Assembly (NCBI GenBank): GCA_017311185.1
Contig: JAESUZ010001065.1
Location: 1 to 64,000 of the forward strand
From: Proteles cristata cristata
Taxonomy: Eukaryota; Chordata; Mammalia; Carnivora; Hyaenidae
Direction: 5' to 3'
DNA: 64,000 bases
In this document: positions 52,001 to 54,933 of the stretch, one piece after another
Layout: each line of letters begins with the position of its first letter
How positions within the stretch are numbered: the first letter of the stretch is position 1
Notes under the pieces: generated by a model
What the model was told of the DNA's origin: nothing
What the model saw: only the letters and a program-made list of their open reading frames with translations
Databases searched by the model: none
Program-made: the position numbers and the translations under genes

Positions 52001-54933
52001 CACCATCTGTTGCAGCGGGTGAGGCCAAGGCAGAAAAGCTGGCAGCCCCACGCACTAAATGTCCGGGCCGCTCCAGACCCCATCGTGCAGGCACCCTGGG
52101 CTCACTGCCTAACTCTGGGAGGTGCCCCTTATATTGGGTGACTGTGCAGGGCCTGGCATGCAGTGGGCACACAGCAATTGCTGGTTTCACTCCCCCCACC
52201 CATCCTGGCCAGCAGGGGGGCCAAGGACAAGACCCTCAGGGCCCTAACACAGGCACCGGATGGAGGAACTTGGGCCCAGAGCTACAAACAACTAAGGGCA
52301 GCTGATGGCCCACGGGCAGTAGGATTGTGGCCACCTCCCAGTGGTCACCCACAGCAGGTGGATCAAAATAATCTCAGGAACTCGACCATGATTTTGCCCC
52401 CCAGAGAAGTGCTTCTATGAGAAGACAGGGTCTTGGGAATTTGTTTTCAGTGAAGCTGTCCAAACAGCATGCCTGGATTGAAAGCCGCGCTGGAGGGAGG
52501 TGGCCTGAACAGCCCCTGGCCCCAAGCTGGGCACTGCTCTGATGGAGGGGAGGGAGGGCGGCCCGTGCAGGTGGGCAGCCCACCATCATGGCTTCCTGCA
52601 TGGGGGGGAGGTGGGGGGAGGGGGAGGTGGGGGAGGGGAGGTCACACAGGTGAGCAGCTCACCATCATGGCTTCCTGCAGGGGTGGAGGCGGAGGGGGTG
52701 GGAGGTAGGGGTGGGGAGTGAGGTTGGCCCACACGGGTGAGTGGCTCACCATCATGGCTTCCTGCATTAGGGGGAGGAGAGAGGGTGGCCCCAGTGTAGG
52801 TGGGCAGCCCACCATCATGGCTTCCTGCATGGGGGGGAGGTGGGGGGTGGGGTGGGAGGGAGGCCCACAGGTGAAACAGCTCACCATCATGGCTCCTGCA
52901 GGGGCGGGGGTGGGAGGGGTGGAAGGTAGGGGTGGGAGTGAGGTTGGCCCACACAGTGGTGGCTCACCATCATGGCTTCCTGCAGGGACGGGGGTGGGAG
53001 GGGTGGGGTAGGGGGTGGGGTGAGGTGGCCCCAGGGTGGCTCCCATCATAGCCTTCCTGCAGGGGCGGGGTGAGGGTGGGAGGTAGGGGTGAGGGGTGGT
53101 GTACACAGTCGGCCATCATGGCTTCCTGCACGGTGAGGTGTGGCAGCAGCATGTCGTCTGCATGATGTAACAGGACACCTTCCCGGAAGCAGCGCAGATC
53201 CACGAGGCAGGCCGTTAATGAGGACGACCCCTTCATGCAGTCTCCCTGCAGAGTGGAGAGGCGGACACTGTCAGCTCCCCCTCCAGGAGCCCTGGGGAGG
53301 GAGGGGGGCCCTTCCCACATCTTCCGCTGAACCATGGACCAAAGAGACACCAAGGGGCAGGAGGATGGGGCCCCAGAGCAGGCCCAGGACTCGCGGGAAG
53401 GAGCTGCGTGGAGCCCCATGCTCGGGACGGACCATAATTGCCGAATCCGTAGTAACCAGTGCTTATGAACAAAGATGCGCGTGGGTGCTCCCACACGCAC
53501 CGGGGAGCACGTGCACTAACCCCCACCACCACTGTGCTGGGGTTCCTGAAGATTGGCTTCTGCGTGATCCTGGGAGTGACCAAGACCACACCAAAGGACA
53601 AGGCTCTGAGGCTGGGGCGTAGCCACTGCGTCAGAGCCAGTTCCTAGGGCCGAGAGACGGAGGTAGGCTCCCTGCGCACAGGTGGCCCAGAGGAGGGTCT
53701 CAGGCCTGCATCCATACGGCCCACGTGGGTGTCCCCTGACCCAGCGACCTGGGTCAGCGGGCATGGCATGCACCCCGGAGGCCTGAGGGCACAGCCTCCC
53801 CCTCCCATCGGCACTGGCCCAGGGAGGCGTGATTGGGGGTGCTGGCCTCCCCAAAGACTTACTTCCTGGATGTCTCTAAGCACAGAAACCCTGCGGGACT
53901 GTGGGGACAGGTGAAATTACGGCTGGTTTCCAGCCCCATCCCGGCCCGGCCATGACTGTGACCTTAGGCTTTTTCCTCCAGGCAGTGGCCTGGGATCCCT
54001 TCCCCGCTGCGAGCAGCCTCCTCCAGACAGGCTGCCCGAACACCCCCAGGCCAGGCAGCAGCTGTGGGGGTGGGGTGCTGACAGTGGCTGCCCCCACGCT
54101 CCCCCGCCCCCACCCAAGCACCCCCTCGATACTGGGTGTTGACTCCAACCTTTAGATGTGAATGCAACAGGCAGGAATTTGTCATAAGTGAGGTTTTAAA
54201 AAATCCTAATTTCAGGCTTTAAGGAGCAATGCCGAGGCCCCAAGGAAAGGGGTGATCGTTATCTTTTTTGTCCAGGGGATGAAATTCTCCTGAGTATTAG
54301 CAGTACTTACTAAAGTTAGCAAATGCCAGCCTGAGAAGTGAAGGCAGCCGGCTTTAGGAGGCCAGTTCTAACACTCGTAAGGACTGGGCTTTCTGGTGAC
54401 GCCACCAGGAATGTCACCAGGCAGGATGTCCAGGAGACCTCAATCCACACTAGTCTCAGGGTTCTCCTGCCGTCCCCTCCCCGGCCTTGACCTTCCCCCT
54501 CCTTCCTATCTTGCGTCCGGCGGCGCCTGAGCCCACGAGGGAGCCGACCCGCCCACTCCGTCCCGTGGCCTCCTTCCCCTGCACGGCCAGGCCACTCTCC
54601 ACGTCACGTGACACTGAGCAGGTGCTGCCCTTTGACGCTTTCAAAGTCATGGCCTTCCCTGCAGGGCTTCCTTCCCAGCTCCCAAGGCCTTGGATCAGAG
54701 TCTGTACAGAATCTGAAGAAGTGACAGGATGAACGGAAGGGGACTGGCTCCCCTGACTGCCACCCTCGGCCAACCACAGGGCGAGACGCTGCTTCTCCAC
54801 AGCAGGCATGCTCACCTGTATCCGGCCAGAATGTTCATGAGCGTGGACTTCCCGGCCCCGGAGGGACCCATGATGGCCACCAGCTCCCCGCTGTTGAACT
54901 TCCCAGAGATCCCTTTCAGAAGGGTCTTGTATC
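36820..54933 (-). CDS. ABCG1: ABCG1, ATP-binding cassette sub-family G member 1 (13 coding exons, N-terminus outside window)
   Basis: ABCG1 is a half-size ABC transporter that works as a dimer in plasma and endosomal membranes and moves cholesterol and oxysterols out of cells to HDL. Minus-strand exons: 54,816-54,933; 53,114-53,245; 50,481-50,531; 46,194-46,339; 45,800-45,923; 44,693-44,807; 42,548-42,732; 42,311-42,412; 41,275-41,443; 40,174-40,274; 39,908-40,066; 38,600-38,718; 36,820-37,048. Visible in order are Walker A (GPSGAGKST), Q-loop region, ABC signature (LSGGQRKR), Walker B ([12 protein letters not shown]), H-loop (CTVHQPS), a linker, and a C-terminal membrane domain with about six hydrophobic segments ending in YKIRAER and TAA. 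Except for the second exon listed, every exon agrees in phase with its neighbours. The order nucleotide-binding domain before membrane domain is the G-family layout. The first ~95 residues of the long human isoform are missing here because their exons lie beyond 64,000. Near-identity to the known mammalian protein makes ABCG4, the closest relative, unlikely. Confidence 0.97.
37289..37487 (+). mobile_element. CAN SINE in ABCG1 intron, carries AGGTCATGACCT
   Basis: Head GGGCGCCTGGGGCGCTCGG. Flanked by AAGCTCTTTGATCA and a similar AAGAGCTTTTTGATCA. Positions 37,340-37,351 read AGGTCATGACCT. Confidence 0.94.
37600..37825 (+). mobile_element. Felid CAN SINE in ABCG1 intron
   Basis: Head GAGGCGCCTGGGTGGCTTAG. 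Perfect 16-bp target duplication AAATAAAACCCTTCTG at 37,584-37,599 and 37,826-37,841, which indicates a young insertion. Confidence 0.96.
38385..38430 (+). repeat. (GT/GC)n microsatellite
   Basis: Alternating purine-pyrimidine run (GCGCGTGTGTGTGCGTGTGT-type), able to adopt left-handed DNA in principle. Confidence 0.8.
38600..38718 (-). CDS. ABCG1: ABCG1 exon (membrane domain, VATFVGP..SYISYV)
   Basis: 119 bp, acceptor CCGCCAG|GTGGCC and donor GTCAG|GTAGCG. Encodes [19 protein letters not shown] and [18 protein letters not shown]. Confidence 0.97.
38719..39907 (-). other. ABCG1 intron
   Basis: GT-AG intron of 1.2 kb with a MIR-like element at 39,540-39,690. Confidence 0.9.
39540..39690 (+). 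repeat. MIR SINE fragment
   Basis: Sense MIR core and 3' part: GGGCCTCAGTCTCCACACCT, GTGAAATGGGGACAG, CTAGAAACAGCACCTGGCAC. Confidence 0.7.
39908..40066 (-). CDS. ABCG1: ABCG1 exon (membrane domain, [12 protein letters not shown])
   Basis: 159 bp, 53 codons in phase 0, acceptor CTTCCAG|ATCATG and donor CTGCAG|GTAGGC. Contains [15 protein letters not shown] and [14 protein letters not shown]. Confidence 0.97.
40174..40274 (-). CDS. ABCG1: ABCG1 exon ([14 protein letters not shown])
   Basis: 101 bp, acceptor TCCTAG|TCCCCC and donor TTCCAG|GTGTG. Encodes [20 protein letters not shown] and [12 protein letters not shown], matching the conserved transporter segment. Confidence 0.97.
40275..41274 (-). 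other. ABCG1 intron with SINE
   Basis: GT-AG intron of 1 kb. Holds the CAN SINE at 40,783-40,980. Confidence 0.9.
40783..40980 (+). mobile_element. CAN SINE in ABCG1 intron
   Basis: Head GGGGGGCTGCCTGGGGGGCT (diverged), then TCGGTTAAGCGTCCGACTTT, CT-rich middle and A-rich end. Confidence 0.9.
41275..41443 (-). CDS. ABCG1: ABCG1 exon (first membrane helices)
   Basis: 169 bp, acceptor CCACAG|GTCCTGACG and donor ACGT|GTGAGT. Encodes [37 protein letters not shown] and [10 protein letters not shown]. Two hydrophobic helices are evident. Confidence 0.97.
41444..42310 (-). other. ABCG1 intron
   Basis: GT-AG intron of 0.87 kb. No repeat recognised. Confidence 0.88.
42311..42412 (-). CDS. ABCG1: ABCG1 exon ([16 protein letters not shown])
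   Basis: 102 bp, 34 codons in phase 0, acceptor TCCCCAG|GACTCC and donor TTCG|GTAAGG. Contains [19 protein letters not shown], leading into the first membrane helix. Confidence 0.97.
42548..42732 (-). CDS. ABCG1: ABCG1 exon with two alternative 5' splice sites
   Basis: 185 bp with acceptor CCTACAG|TCATGGAG. Encodes [27 protein letters not shown] and, when fully used, [12 protein letters not shown] before the donor AAAG|GTAATG. An in-frame second donor, GAAGAG|GTAAAG, would end the exon at 42,584 and remove exactly these 12 residues. Human ABCG1 isoforms differ by the same 12-residue segment, so both products are expected here. Confidence 0.96.
43030..43244 (-). mobile_element. CAN SINE, antisense, in ABCG1 intron
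   Basis: Perfect 16-bp target duplication AGCTCATGCATCTATT at 43,014-43,029 and 43,245-43,260. The body ends CACCCAGGTGCCCC. SINE sense matches the gene's sense strand. Confidence 0.96.
43670..43890 (+). mobile_element. MLT1-like LTR fragment (old)
   Basis: Phrases CGACTTCTGGCCCCCAGAAC, CTAGAGAATGAATTTCTGCC and GTTTTCGGCCACTCGGTGTG resemble the MLT1 3' part. Assignment is from memory of the consensus. Confidence 0.5.
44693..44807 (-). CDS. ABCG1: ABCG1 exon ([18 protein letters not shown])
   Basis: 115 bp, acceptor TTTTTTCCAG|CTTTATG and donor TTTTG|GTAAGT. Encodes [19 protein letters not shown] and [13 protein letters not shown], the region after the H-loop. Confidence 0.97.
44872..45255 (+). 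repeat. (CCAT)n tetranucleotide array, diverged
   Basis: About 380 bp of imperfect CCAT/CCAC units with ATTCAACC interruptions. In ABCG1 sense it is a TGGA-type array placed about 65 bp before the acceptor at 44,808, filling about 40% of a 1-kb intron. Confidence 0.92.
45490..45640 (-). repeat. MIR-like SINE fragment in ABCG1 intron
   Basis: Antisense MIR phrases: GCCTCAGTAATGTTAGTGAC and TTGCCCAGGATCCC. Confidence 0.45.
45800..45923 (-). CDS. ABCG1: ABCG1 exon (D-loop and H-loop)
   Basis: 124 bp, acceptor TTGCAG|CGGCCTG and donor GACCAG|GTGTGC. Encodes [17 protein letters not shown], then [20 protein letters not shown] with the switch histidine. Confidence 0.97.
46194..46339 (-). CDS. ABCG1: ABCG1 exon (ABC signature and Walker B)
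   Basis: 146 bp, acceptor TCCCCAG|GTCAAGG and donor ACCAG|GTAGTC. Encodes [34 protein letters not shown] and [12 protein letters not shown]. All residues of the signature and the catalytic glutamate are present. Confidence 0.98.
46740..46820 (+). repeat. MIR-like SINE fragment in ABCG1 intron
   Basis: GGTTAAATGAGACAAGGATG, CACCTGGCACAGAGCCTGAC and GGAAGCATTTAATCAAC match the MIR 3' half. Confidence 0.6.
48105..48303 (+). mobile_element. CAN SINE in ABCG1 intron
   Basis: Head GGGGCGCCTGGGTGGCTCAG. Target duplication ACATTCCATTCTA (48,092-48,104) / ACATTCCAATCTA (48,304-48,316). Confidence 0.95.
50481..50531 (-). CDS. ABCG1: ABCG1 micro-exon ([17 protein letters not shown])
   Basis: 51 bp, 17 codons in phase 0, acceptor CACTGCAG|GTGTCC and donor GAGATG|GTAAGT. 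Encodes the linker between the Q-loop exon and the signature exon. Confidence 0.97.
50532..53113 (-). other. ABCG1 intron, 2.6 kb, begins in a minisatellite
   Basis: The part next to the upstream exon is the minisatellite at 52,540-53,135. The remainder has no recognised repeat. Confidence 0.8.
52540..53135 (-). repeat. Minisatellite built from an ABCG1 exon-intron boundary
   Basis: Eight copies of a 17-20 bp core whose minus-strand reading is TGCAGGAAGCCATGATGG begin at about 52,582, 52,661, 52,748, 52,811, 52,884, 52,966, 53,043 and 53,113, with unit lengths of 63-87 bp. The last is the 3' end of the coding exon (VQEAMM). The spacers are pyrimidine-rich in gene sense (CCCACCCC-like). Units at 52,661, 52,748, 52,884 and 52,966 retain GTGAGC directly after ATGATG, and the two most distant have GTGGGC. 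The two copies nearest the exon body (53,043 and 53,113) have no GT. Confidence 0.93.
53114..53245 (-). CDS. ABCG1: ABCG1 exon (Q-loop), reading frame disturbed by indels
   Basis: Acceptor CTCTGCAG|GGAGACT. The exon should encode the segment from RETGMKG through DLRCFRK and the Q-loop [11 protein letters not shown] to VQEAMM in 133 bp. Here it measures 132 bp. Against the conserved frame one base is missing in the ETG glycine codon, one is missing after MKG, one is gained near the arginine-aspartate codons before LRCF, one is gained after RCFR, and one is missing in the CAG of MQDD. The net change is -1. The expected GT after ATGATG is replaced by GCCGAC. Flanking exons are perfect, so sequencing or assembly error is the first explanation. 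Real inactivation cannot be excluded from this sequence alone. Confidence 0.85.
53246..54815 (-). other. ABCG1 intron, 1.6 kb
   Basis: GC-rich, GT-AG. No repeat recognised. Confidence 0.85.
54816..54933 (-). CDS. ABCG1: ABCG1 exon (Walker A), first coding exon in window
   Basis: 118 bp, acceptor TCCTGCAG|GATACAAG and donor TACAG|GTGAGC. Encodes [17 protein letters not shown], then the P-loop [20 protein letters not shown]. It begins inside the glycine codon of the KKG tripeptide, so the preceding exon must end with one base of that codon. Confidence 0.98.

Follow-up and report, generated by a model that had tools for sequence, protein, structure and literature searches.

We investigated a stretch of 64,000 nucleotides from the Proteles cristata cristata assembly GCA_017311185.1 (contig JAESUZ010001065.1, positions 1 to 64,000; hereafter the window), in which exons of the transporter gene ABCG1 occupy the minus strand, and focused on a minisatellite that adjoins one of these exons. 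The peptides read from the minus strand matched ABCG1 chains in the PDB, which confirmed the gene assignment of the first-pass annotation of this DNA. The exon in question, hereafter the parent exon, is flanked by the Walker A exon upstream and the VSAHLK exon downstream, and ends in VQEAMM (Table 1). As relatives we used the best 120 of 7,769 protein hits; these are cluster representatives, which may conceal isoforms of close species, and no felid name appears among them. The closest of them was the striped hyena ABCG1 (P0001), which agreed at 484 of 487 residues across the downstream exons when a 28-residue insert of the hyena chain was excluded. This insert, located between TSLQ and VATFVG, is absent from the window exons as joined, and is perhaps a gene-model error.

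The array begins at the last bases of the parent exon and reaches approximately 52545. Its core 18-mer, TGCAGGAAGCCATGATGG, occurs exactly six times in the window, all between 52583 and 53130, and was not found in any of 100 dinucleotide shuffles. Together with two altered cores, this gives eight cores on the minus strand, comprising the exon's own and seven intronic ones, arranged head to tail beyond what chance would give, as in a minisatellite. Tandem Repeats Finder also picked up the array, at periods of 77-87 and scores of 175-287. The proposal that the exon end and its donor have been amplified into an intronic minisatellite thus stood, as did the assignment of GTGAGC to four units, while the statement that the same core recurs in every unit needed correction, since only six of the eight cores are exact, U1 reading GAAGGCTATGATG (13 bases) and U3 reading GAGCCATGATG (11 bases). 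A GT donor follows the core in six of the seven array copies, and in five of them the core has exactly 12 bases before it. The array therefore abuts the exon and carries the donor within its units, as in donor-spanning variable number tandem repeats (VNTRs). A search for the core in viral contigs, considered as a possible chance source of related DNA, gave no matches.

Table 1. Exons, donor site and repeat units at the ABCG1 array (all on the minus strand; lengths are those of closed units).
Feature	Positions	Strand	Core position	Unit length (bases)	Donor (first base)	Remarks	Basis
Upstream ABCG1 exon (Walker A)	54816..54933	-			CAG/GTGAGC	Open frame; upper end by AG rule, approximate	
Parent ABCG1 exon, ends VQEAMM	53114..53245	-				132 bases as read; five one-base indels, namely three losses and two gains	
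Parent exon's own donor site	53108..53113	-			ATG/GCCGAC	Reads GCCGAC, no GT	
Downstream ABCG1 exon (VSAHLK)	50481..50531	-			ATG/GTAAGT	Open frame	
U0	53062..53130	-	53130	69		Exon's own core and first C-rich intron stretch	Core comparison
U1	52985..53061	-	53061	77	GGAGCC	Altered core (13 bases), broken donor	Core comparison
U2	52901..52984	-	52984	84	GTGAGC (52967)	Exact core; first unit of block 1	Core comparison, 18-mer count, pair alignment
U3	52830..52900	-	52900	71	GTGAGC (52884)	Core of 11 bases, one missing	Core comparison, pair alignment
U4	52767..52829	-	52829	63	GTGGGC (52812)	Exact core	Core comparison, 18-mer count
U5	52680..52766	-	52766	87	GTGAGC (52749)	Exact core; opens block 2 and pairs with U2	Pair alignment
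U6	52601..52679	-	52679	79	GTGAGC (52662)	Exact core; counterpart of U3	Pair alignment
U7	52545..52600	-	52600		GTGGGC (52583)	Exact core; last unit, counterpart of U4; merges into unique intron, lower end approximate	

We then compared the parent exon with the hyena protein P0001 by a frameshift-aware alignment. As a result, the exon showed five frame breaks, each a one-base loss or gain, and zero substitutions across the remaining 39 of its 44 residues, whereas 12 other ABCG1 pieces, taken from the Walker A exon onwards, showed no frame break in 1,572 bases and three substitutions in 524 residues (Fisher p 2.5e-6 for the contrast in indels). A PDB search with the parent exon, read in a plain frame, returned nothing beyond a chance match (E 2.3). 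Regarded as a member of the array, the exon's own donor also stands out, since it lacks GT and adjoins the exon with the five indels; with a hand-written donor matrix, it scored -7.8, versus 8.65 for the GTGAGC copies in the array. Neither the frame-breaking indels nor the missing GT is mentioned in the first-pass annotation. Furthermore, unit pairs including U0 or U1 required 5-11 gap events and the three block pairs described below 3-6, and these counts, although their ranges overlap, point to a higher level of noise near the parent exon. Of the 28 G-quadruplex motifs on the plus strand of the window, six fall within the 0.5 kb of the array (52602-53096), which contains none of the 16 on the minus strand, and the G-rich strand of the array is the ABCG1 template strand. 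According to the accessible part of PMC8081667, short consensus indels that disrupt reading frames occur in unpolished long-read assemblies of vertebrates. Locally wrong base calls beside the G-rich/C-rich tract are the likeliest explanation of both the indels and the lost donor, and the frames near the parent exon should therefore not be read literally.

Taken at face value, the assembled letters, with five frame breaks and GCCGAC in place of a donor, would mean that the parent exon is truly damaged and its donor lost in this animal or lineage, leaving ABCG1 broken or reliant on a donor of the array. We considered whether a second, intact ABCG1 exon exists elsewhere in the assembly. The hyena exon peptide matched two of three candidates scored in the 2.39 Gb assembly, namely the parent exon and a paralogue, L002, which we take to be ABCG4, and a DNA search returned five places, consisting of the parent exon, the L002 exon and three short C-rich matches. 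Hence, neither the DNA nor the peptide search yielded any further ABCG1-like copy of the parent exon in this assembly, which may be incomplete; the idea of a second intact exon was rejected, and the result is in keeping with true damage. The homologous exon of L002 is open and keeps its donor, GTGAGG. When aligned at the DNA level with L002, the parent exon showed five single-base gaps at positions the same as or neighbouring those of its five indels, together with six bases gapped at the donor and further gaps beyond. Within the 3.1 kb examined around L002, GCCATGATGG occurs only once, indicating that no such array is present there. Real damage is nevertheless improbable, since the other 12 pieces are open and, with three substitutions in 524 residues, more similar to the hyena than would be expected in a decaying gene, and since five indels without any substitution in the exon's other 39 residues are unlike ordinary decay. 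In addition, EAMM is kept once in all 120 relatives, and the use of any array donor would add a stop. A decayed gene is accordingly disfavoured.

We also considered whether the array is used in splicing, as the first-pass annotation had suggested, either through donors that extend the exon or through units of CAG, 12 bases and GT that serve as in-frame micro-exons adding Glu-Ala-Met-Met. The proposed layout of pyrimidine tract, acceptor, 12 bases and donor was found in five of the seven copies; it holds less well in that the tracts are dominated by C, U1 has no GT and U3 has only 11 bases. In the 22 bases that precede each of the seven CAGs of the array, pyrimidines make up 82-86%, with 55-73% C and only 9-27% T. 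For comparison, nine true acceptors of ABCG1, two or so of them scored one base off register, have 50-95% pyrimidine and 23-59% T. The array donors score 8.65 or 6.11 with the same hand-written matrix, near the 7.86, 10.66 and 10.8 of three other ABCG1 exons. ABCG1 forms differing by 12 residues also exist, with PDB chains of 678 and 666 residues. In the accessible part of PMC5954066, a donor one unit further along a VNTR, in intron 18 of ABCA7, is described as being used.

The sequences at hand argue against such a use in ABCG1. EAMM occurs exactly once in each of the 120 relatives, none of which has a second one, although this is weak evidence for any one species. Extension of the parent exon to each of the six array donors met a stop, in assembled letters that are themselves doubtful, and the five would-be introns between successive copies measure 51-75 bases, a length at or below the usual tolerance of mammalian splicing. 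Strings of CAG, 9-18 bases and GT(A/G)AG(C/T) are common by chance, with 18 on the minus and six on the plus strand of the window, only four in the array and 20 of the 24 outside it. The suggested role in splicing was thus not upheld, and is unlikely in either form. Micro-exons in particular were rejected as the principal interpretation for the absence of a second EAMM in the proteins, the short spacings and the frequency of such strings by chance, and micro-exon splicing is not expected. Still less likely would be an array that acts as a length-variable splicing modulator in this carnivore lineage, made of complete cassettes of acceptor, 12 bases and donor beside an exon for the nucleotide-binding domain, with a copy number that would set how often Glu-Ala-Met-Met is, rarely, inserted in frame or a transcript is broken in frame. 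A dingo gene model (P0057) reads EAMMVSLPLACARPGQ at the expected start of the next exon, possibly a read-through of a GTGAGC donor in the dog, and was left out of the argument.

The history of the array was then traced from the relations among its units. U2, U3 and U4 pair in order with U5, U6 and U7, with whole-unit identities of 0.89, 0.84 and 0.68, the last lowered by the unique flank of U7. After U7 had been trimmed to 58 bases, the alignments of the three pairs comprised 230 columns and showed 12 transitions, one transversion and 12 gap events, and the excess of transitions over one third is significant (p 1.7e-5). Since 12 transitions stand against one transversion, the divergence looks genuine, and the second block looks like a true duplication of a three-unit block. 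It is also conceivable that the array or its second block arose in assembly, from one stretch read twice and joined. The noise of the region and the only 84-89% likeness of the block pairs in aligned columns, with their 12 gap events, would accord with such an artefact, whereas the predominance of transitions is a mark of real mutation rather than of read error, and in each block three unit types can be told apart, the donor being spelt in two ways (GTGAGC and GTGGGC); we regard an artefact as very unlikely.

Finally, the least credible alternative is that the array donors are self-masked decoys held in small hairpins (GGTGAG...CTCACC or GGTGGG...CCCACC) with the exon's donor outside any, for although five of the seven array units (U3-U7) place the donor in a six-pair stem of -6.4 to -10 kcal/mol and one pair changes on both sides, from AU in U3, U5 and U6 to GC in U4 and U7 (six units, U2-U7, counted), 11 to 110 of 200 shuffles of U3-U7 fold as well or better, the covariation score is matched by 109 of 500 shuffles, U4 and U7 are block copies and so represent one event, U1 and U2 fold otherwise, and U0 and U1 are unreliable, so that the hairpins were rejected as a conserved structure.

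We thus favour, as probable, a donor-spanning tandem duplication followed by a three-unit block duplication, with a mis-called exon and an array of spare intronic donors. In this scenario, a tandem duplication in this carnivore or in its ancestors would have copied approximately 17 last coding bases of the parent exon, its donor and about 50 intron bases, producing the minisatellite of eight cores (the exon's own and seven more), which would then have been enlarged by the block duplication. The parent exon and the unit nearest to it would have been mis-called, with spurious indels and a lost donor, perhaps owing to the difficulty of sequencing the C-rich/G-rich tract. The living gene would use a normal donor at the parent exon, and the array would amount to a series of spare donors within the intron. 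Any effect would be expected to resemble that of the ABCA7 intron 18 VNTR: either a downstream donor would occasionally be chosen, yielding a frame-broken transcript, or the length of the array would influence a neighbouring exon.

Several observations weigh against this scenario. The case for base-call error is drawn from the indel pattern alone, and the damage to the parent exon could be real. Gaps are found outside the exon too, as U3 is one core base short and the block pairs contain the 12 gap events, and the gap counts of the U0/U1 pairs overlap those of the block pairs, as given above. The transition test drew on 13 substitutions, which lie in C/T-rich sequence, and used a single set of alignment costs. 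Between U0 and U1 there are two transitions and four transversions, as noise or poor alignment would give.

No description of the ABCG1 array was found in the literature searched, in which coverage of subscription journals is thin. The first-pass annotation had likewise known of none; arrays of this kind have nonetheless been described in ABCA7 and IFI6. As far as the accessible part of PMC5954066 describes it, the ABCA7 intron 18 VNTR adjoins exon 18 and includes its donor, and its length correlates with the skipping of exon 19 in human samples, while the retention of units is independent of length. The likeness is thus that of a minisatellite directly after an ABC transporter exon with the donor included. 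The ABCA7 unit, according to the same partial source, has 25 bases, of which the first two are the donor GT, and is polymorphic at about 12 to 427 copies, whereas the ABCG1 unit has 63-87 bases, of which approximately 17 are coding, also contains an acceptor-like CAG, and is known here from one assembly.

A minisatellite with multiple splice donor sites was also reportedly found in IFI6 (6-16) by Turri, Cuin and Porter in 1995. In the accessible part of PMC4526556, two downstream repeat units of IFI6 are said to serve as donors. Both cases involve a tandem repeat with a donor in successive units; donor use is in print for IFI6, to judge from that part, whereas the ABCG1 array is known from sequence alone. 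Intron gain by tandem genomic duplication, described in the accessible part of PMC4974935, is similar in that duplication spreads splice signals along with exon sequence. In the ABCG1 case, the duplicated stretch runs across a pre-existing border of exon and intron and sits in the intron, with no new intron shown. To judge from its sequence, the ABCG1 array is a richer variant of the known donor-spanning minisatellites, distinguished by units that each bring a coding tail and an acceptor-like CAG along with the donor. It provides a second ABC transporter gene with a minisatellite grown from an exon donor, so that the recurrence of such arrays and the effect of their length on splicing become askable. 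It also serves as a warning that an exon beside such an array can appear broken in an assembly though it is probably intact.

Elsewhere in ABCG1, 12 further residues continue in frame after the VMEI...RPSEE exon (42733-42548). This stretch is presumably the segment that distinguishes the ABCG1 isoforms, and suggests that tandem alternative donors 36 bases apart are retained after this exon. A second tandem array lies at 62842-63105; it is CA-rich, and its nested periods include 23, 29, 54 and 101 bases.

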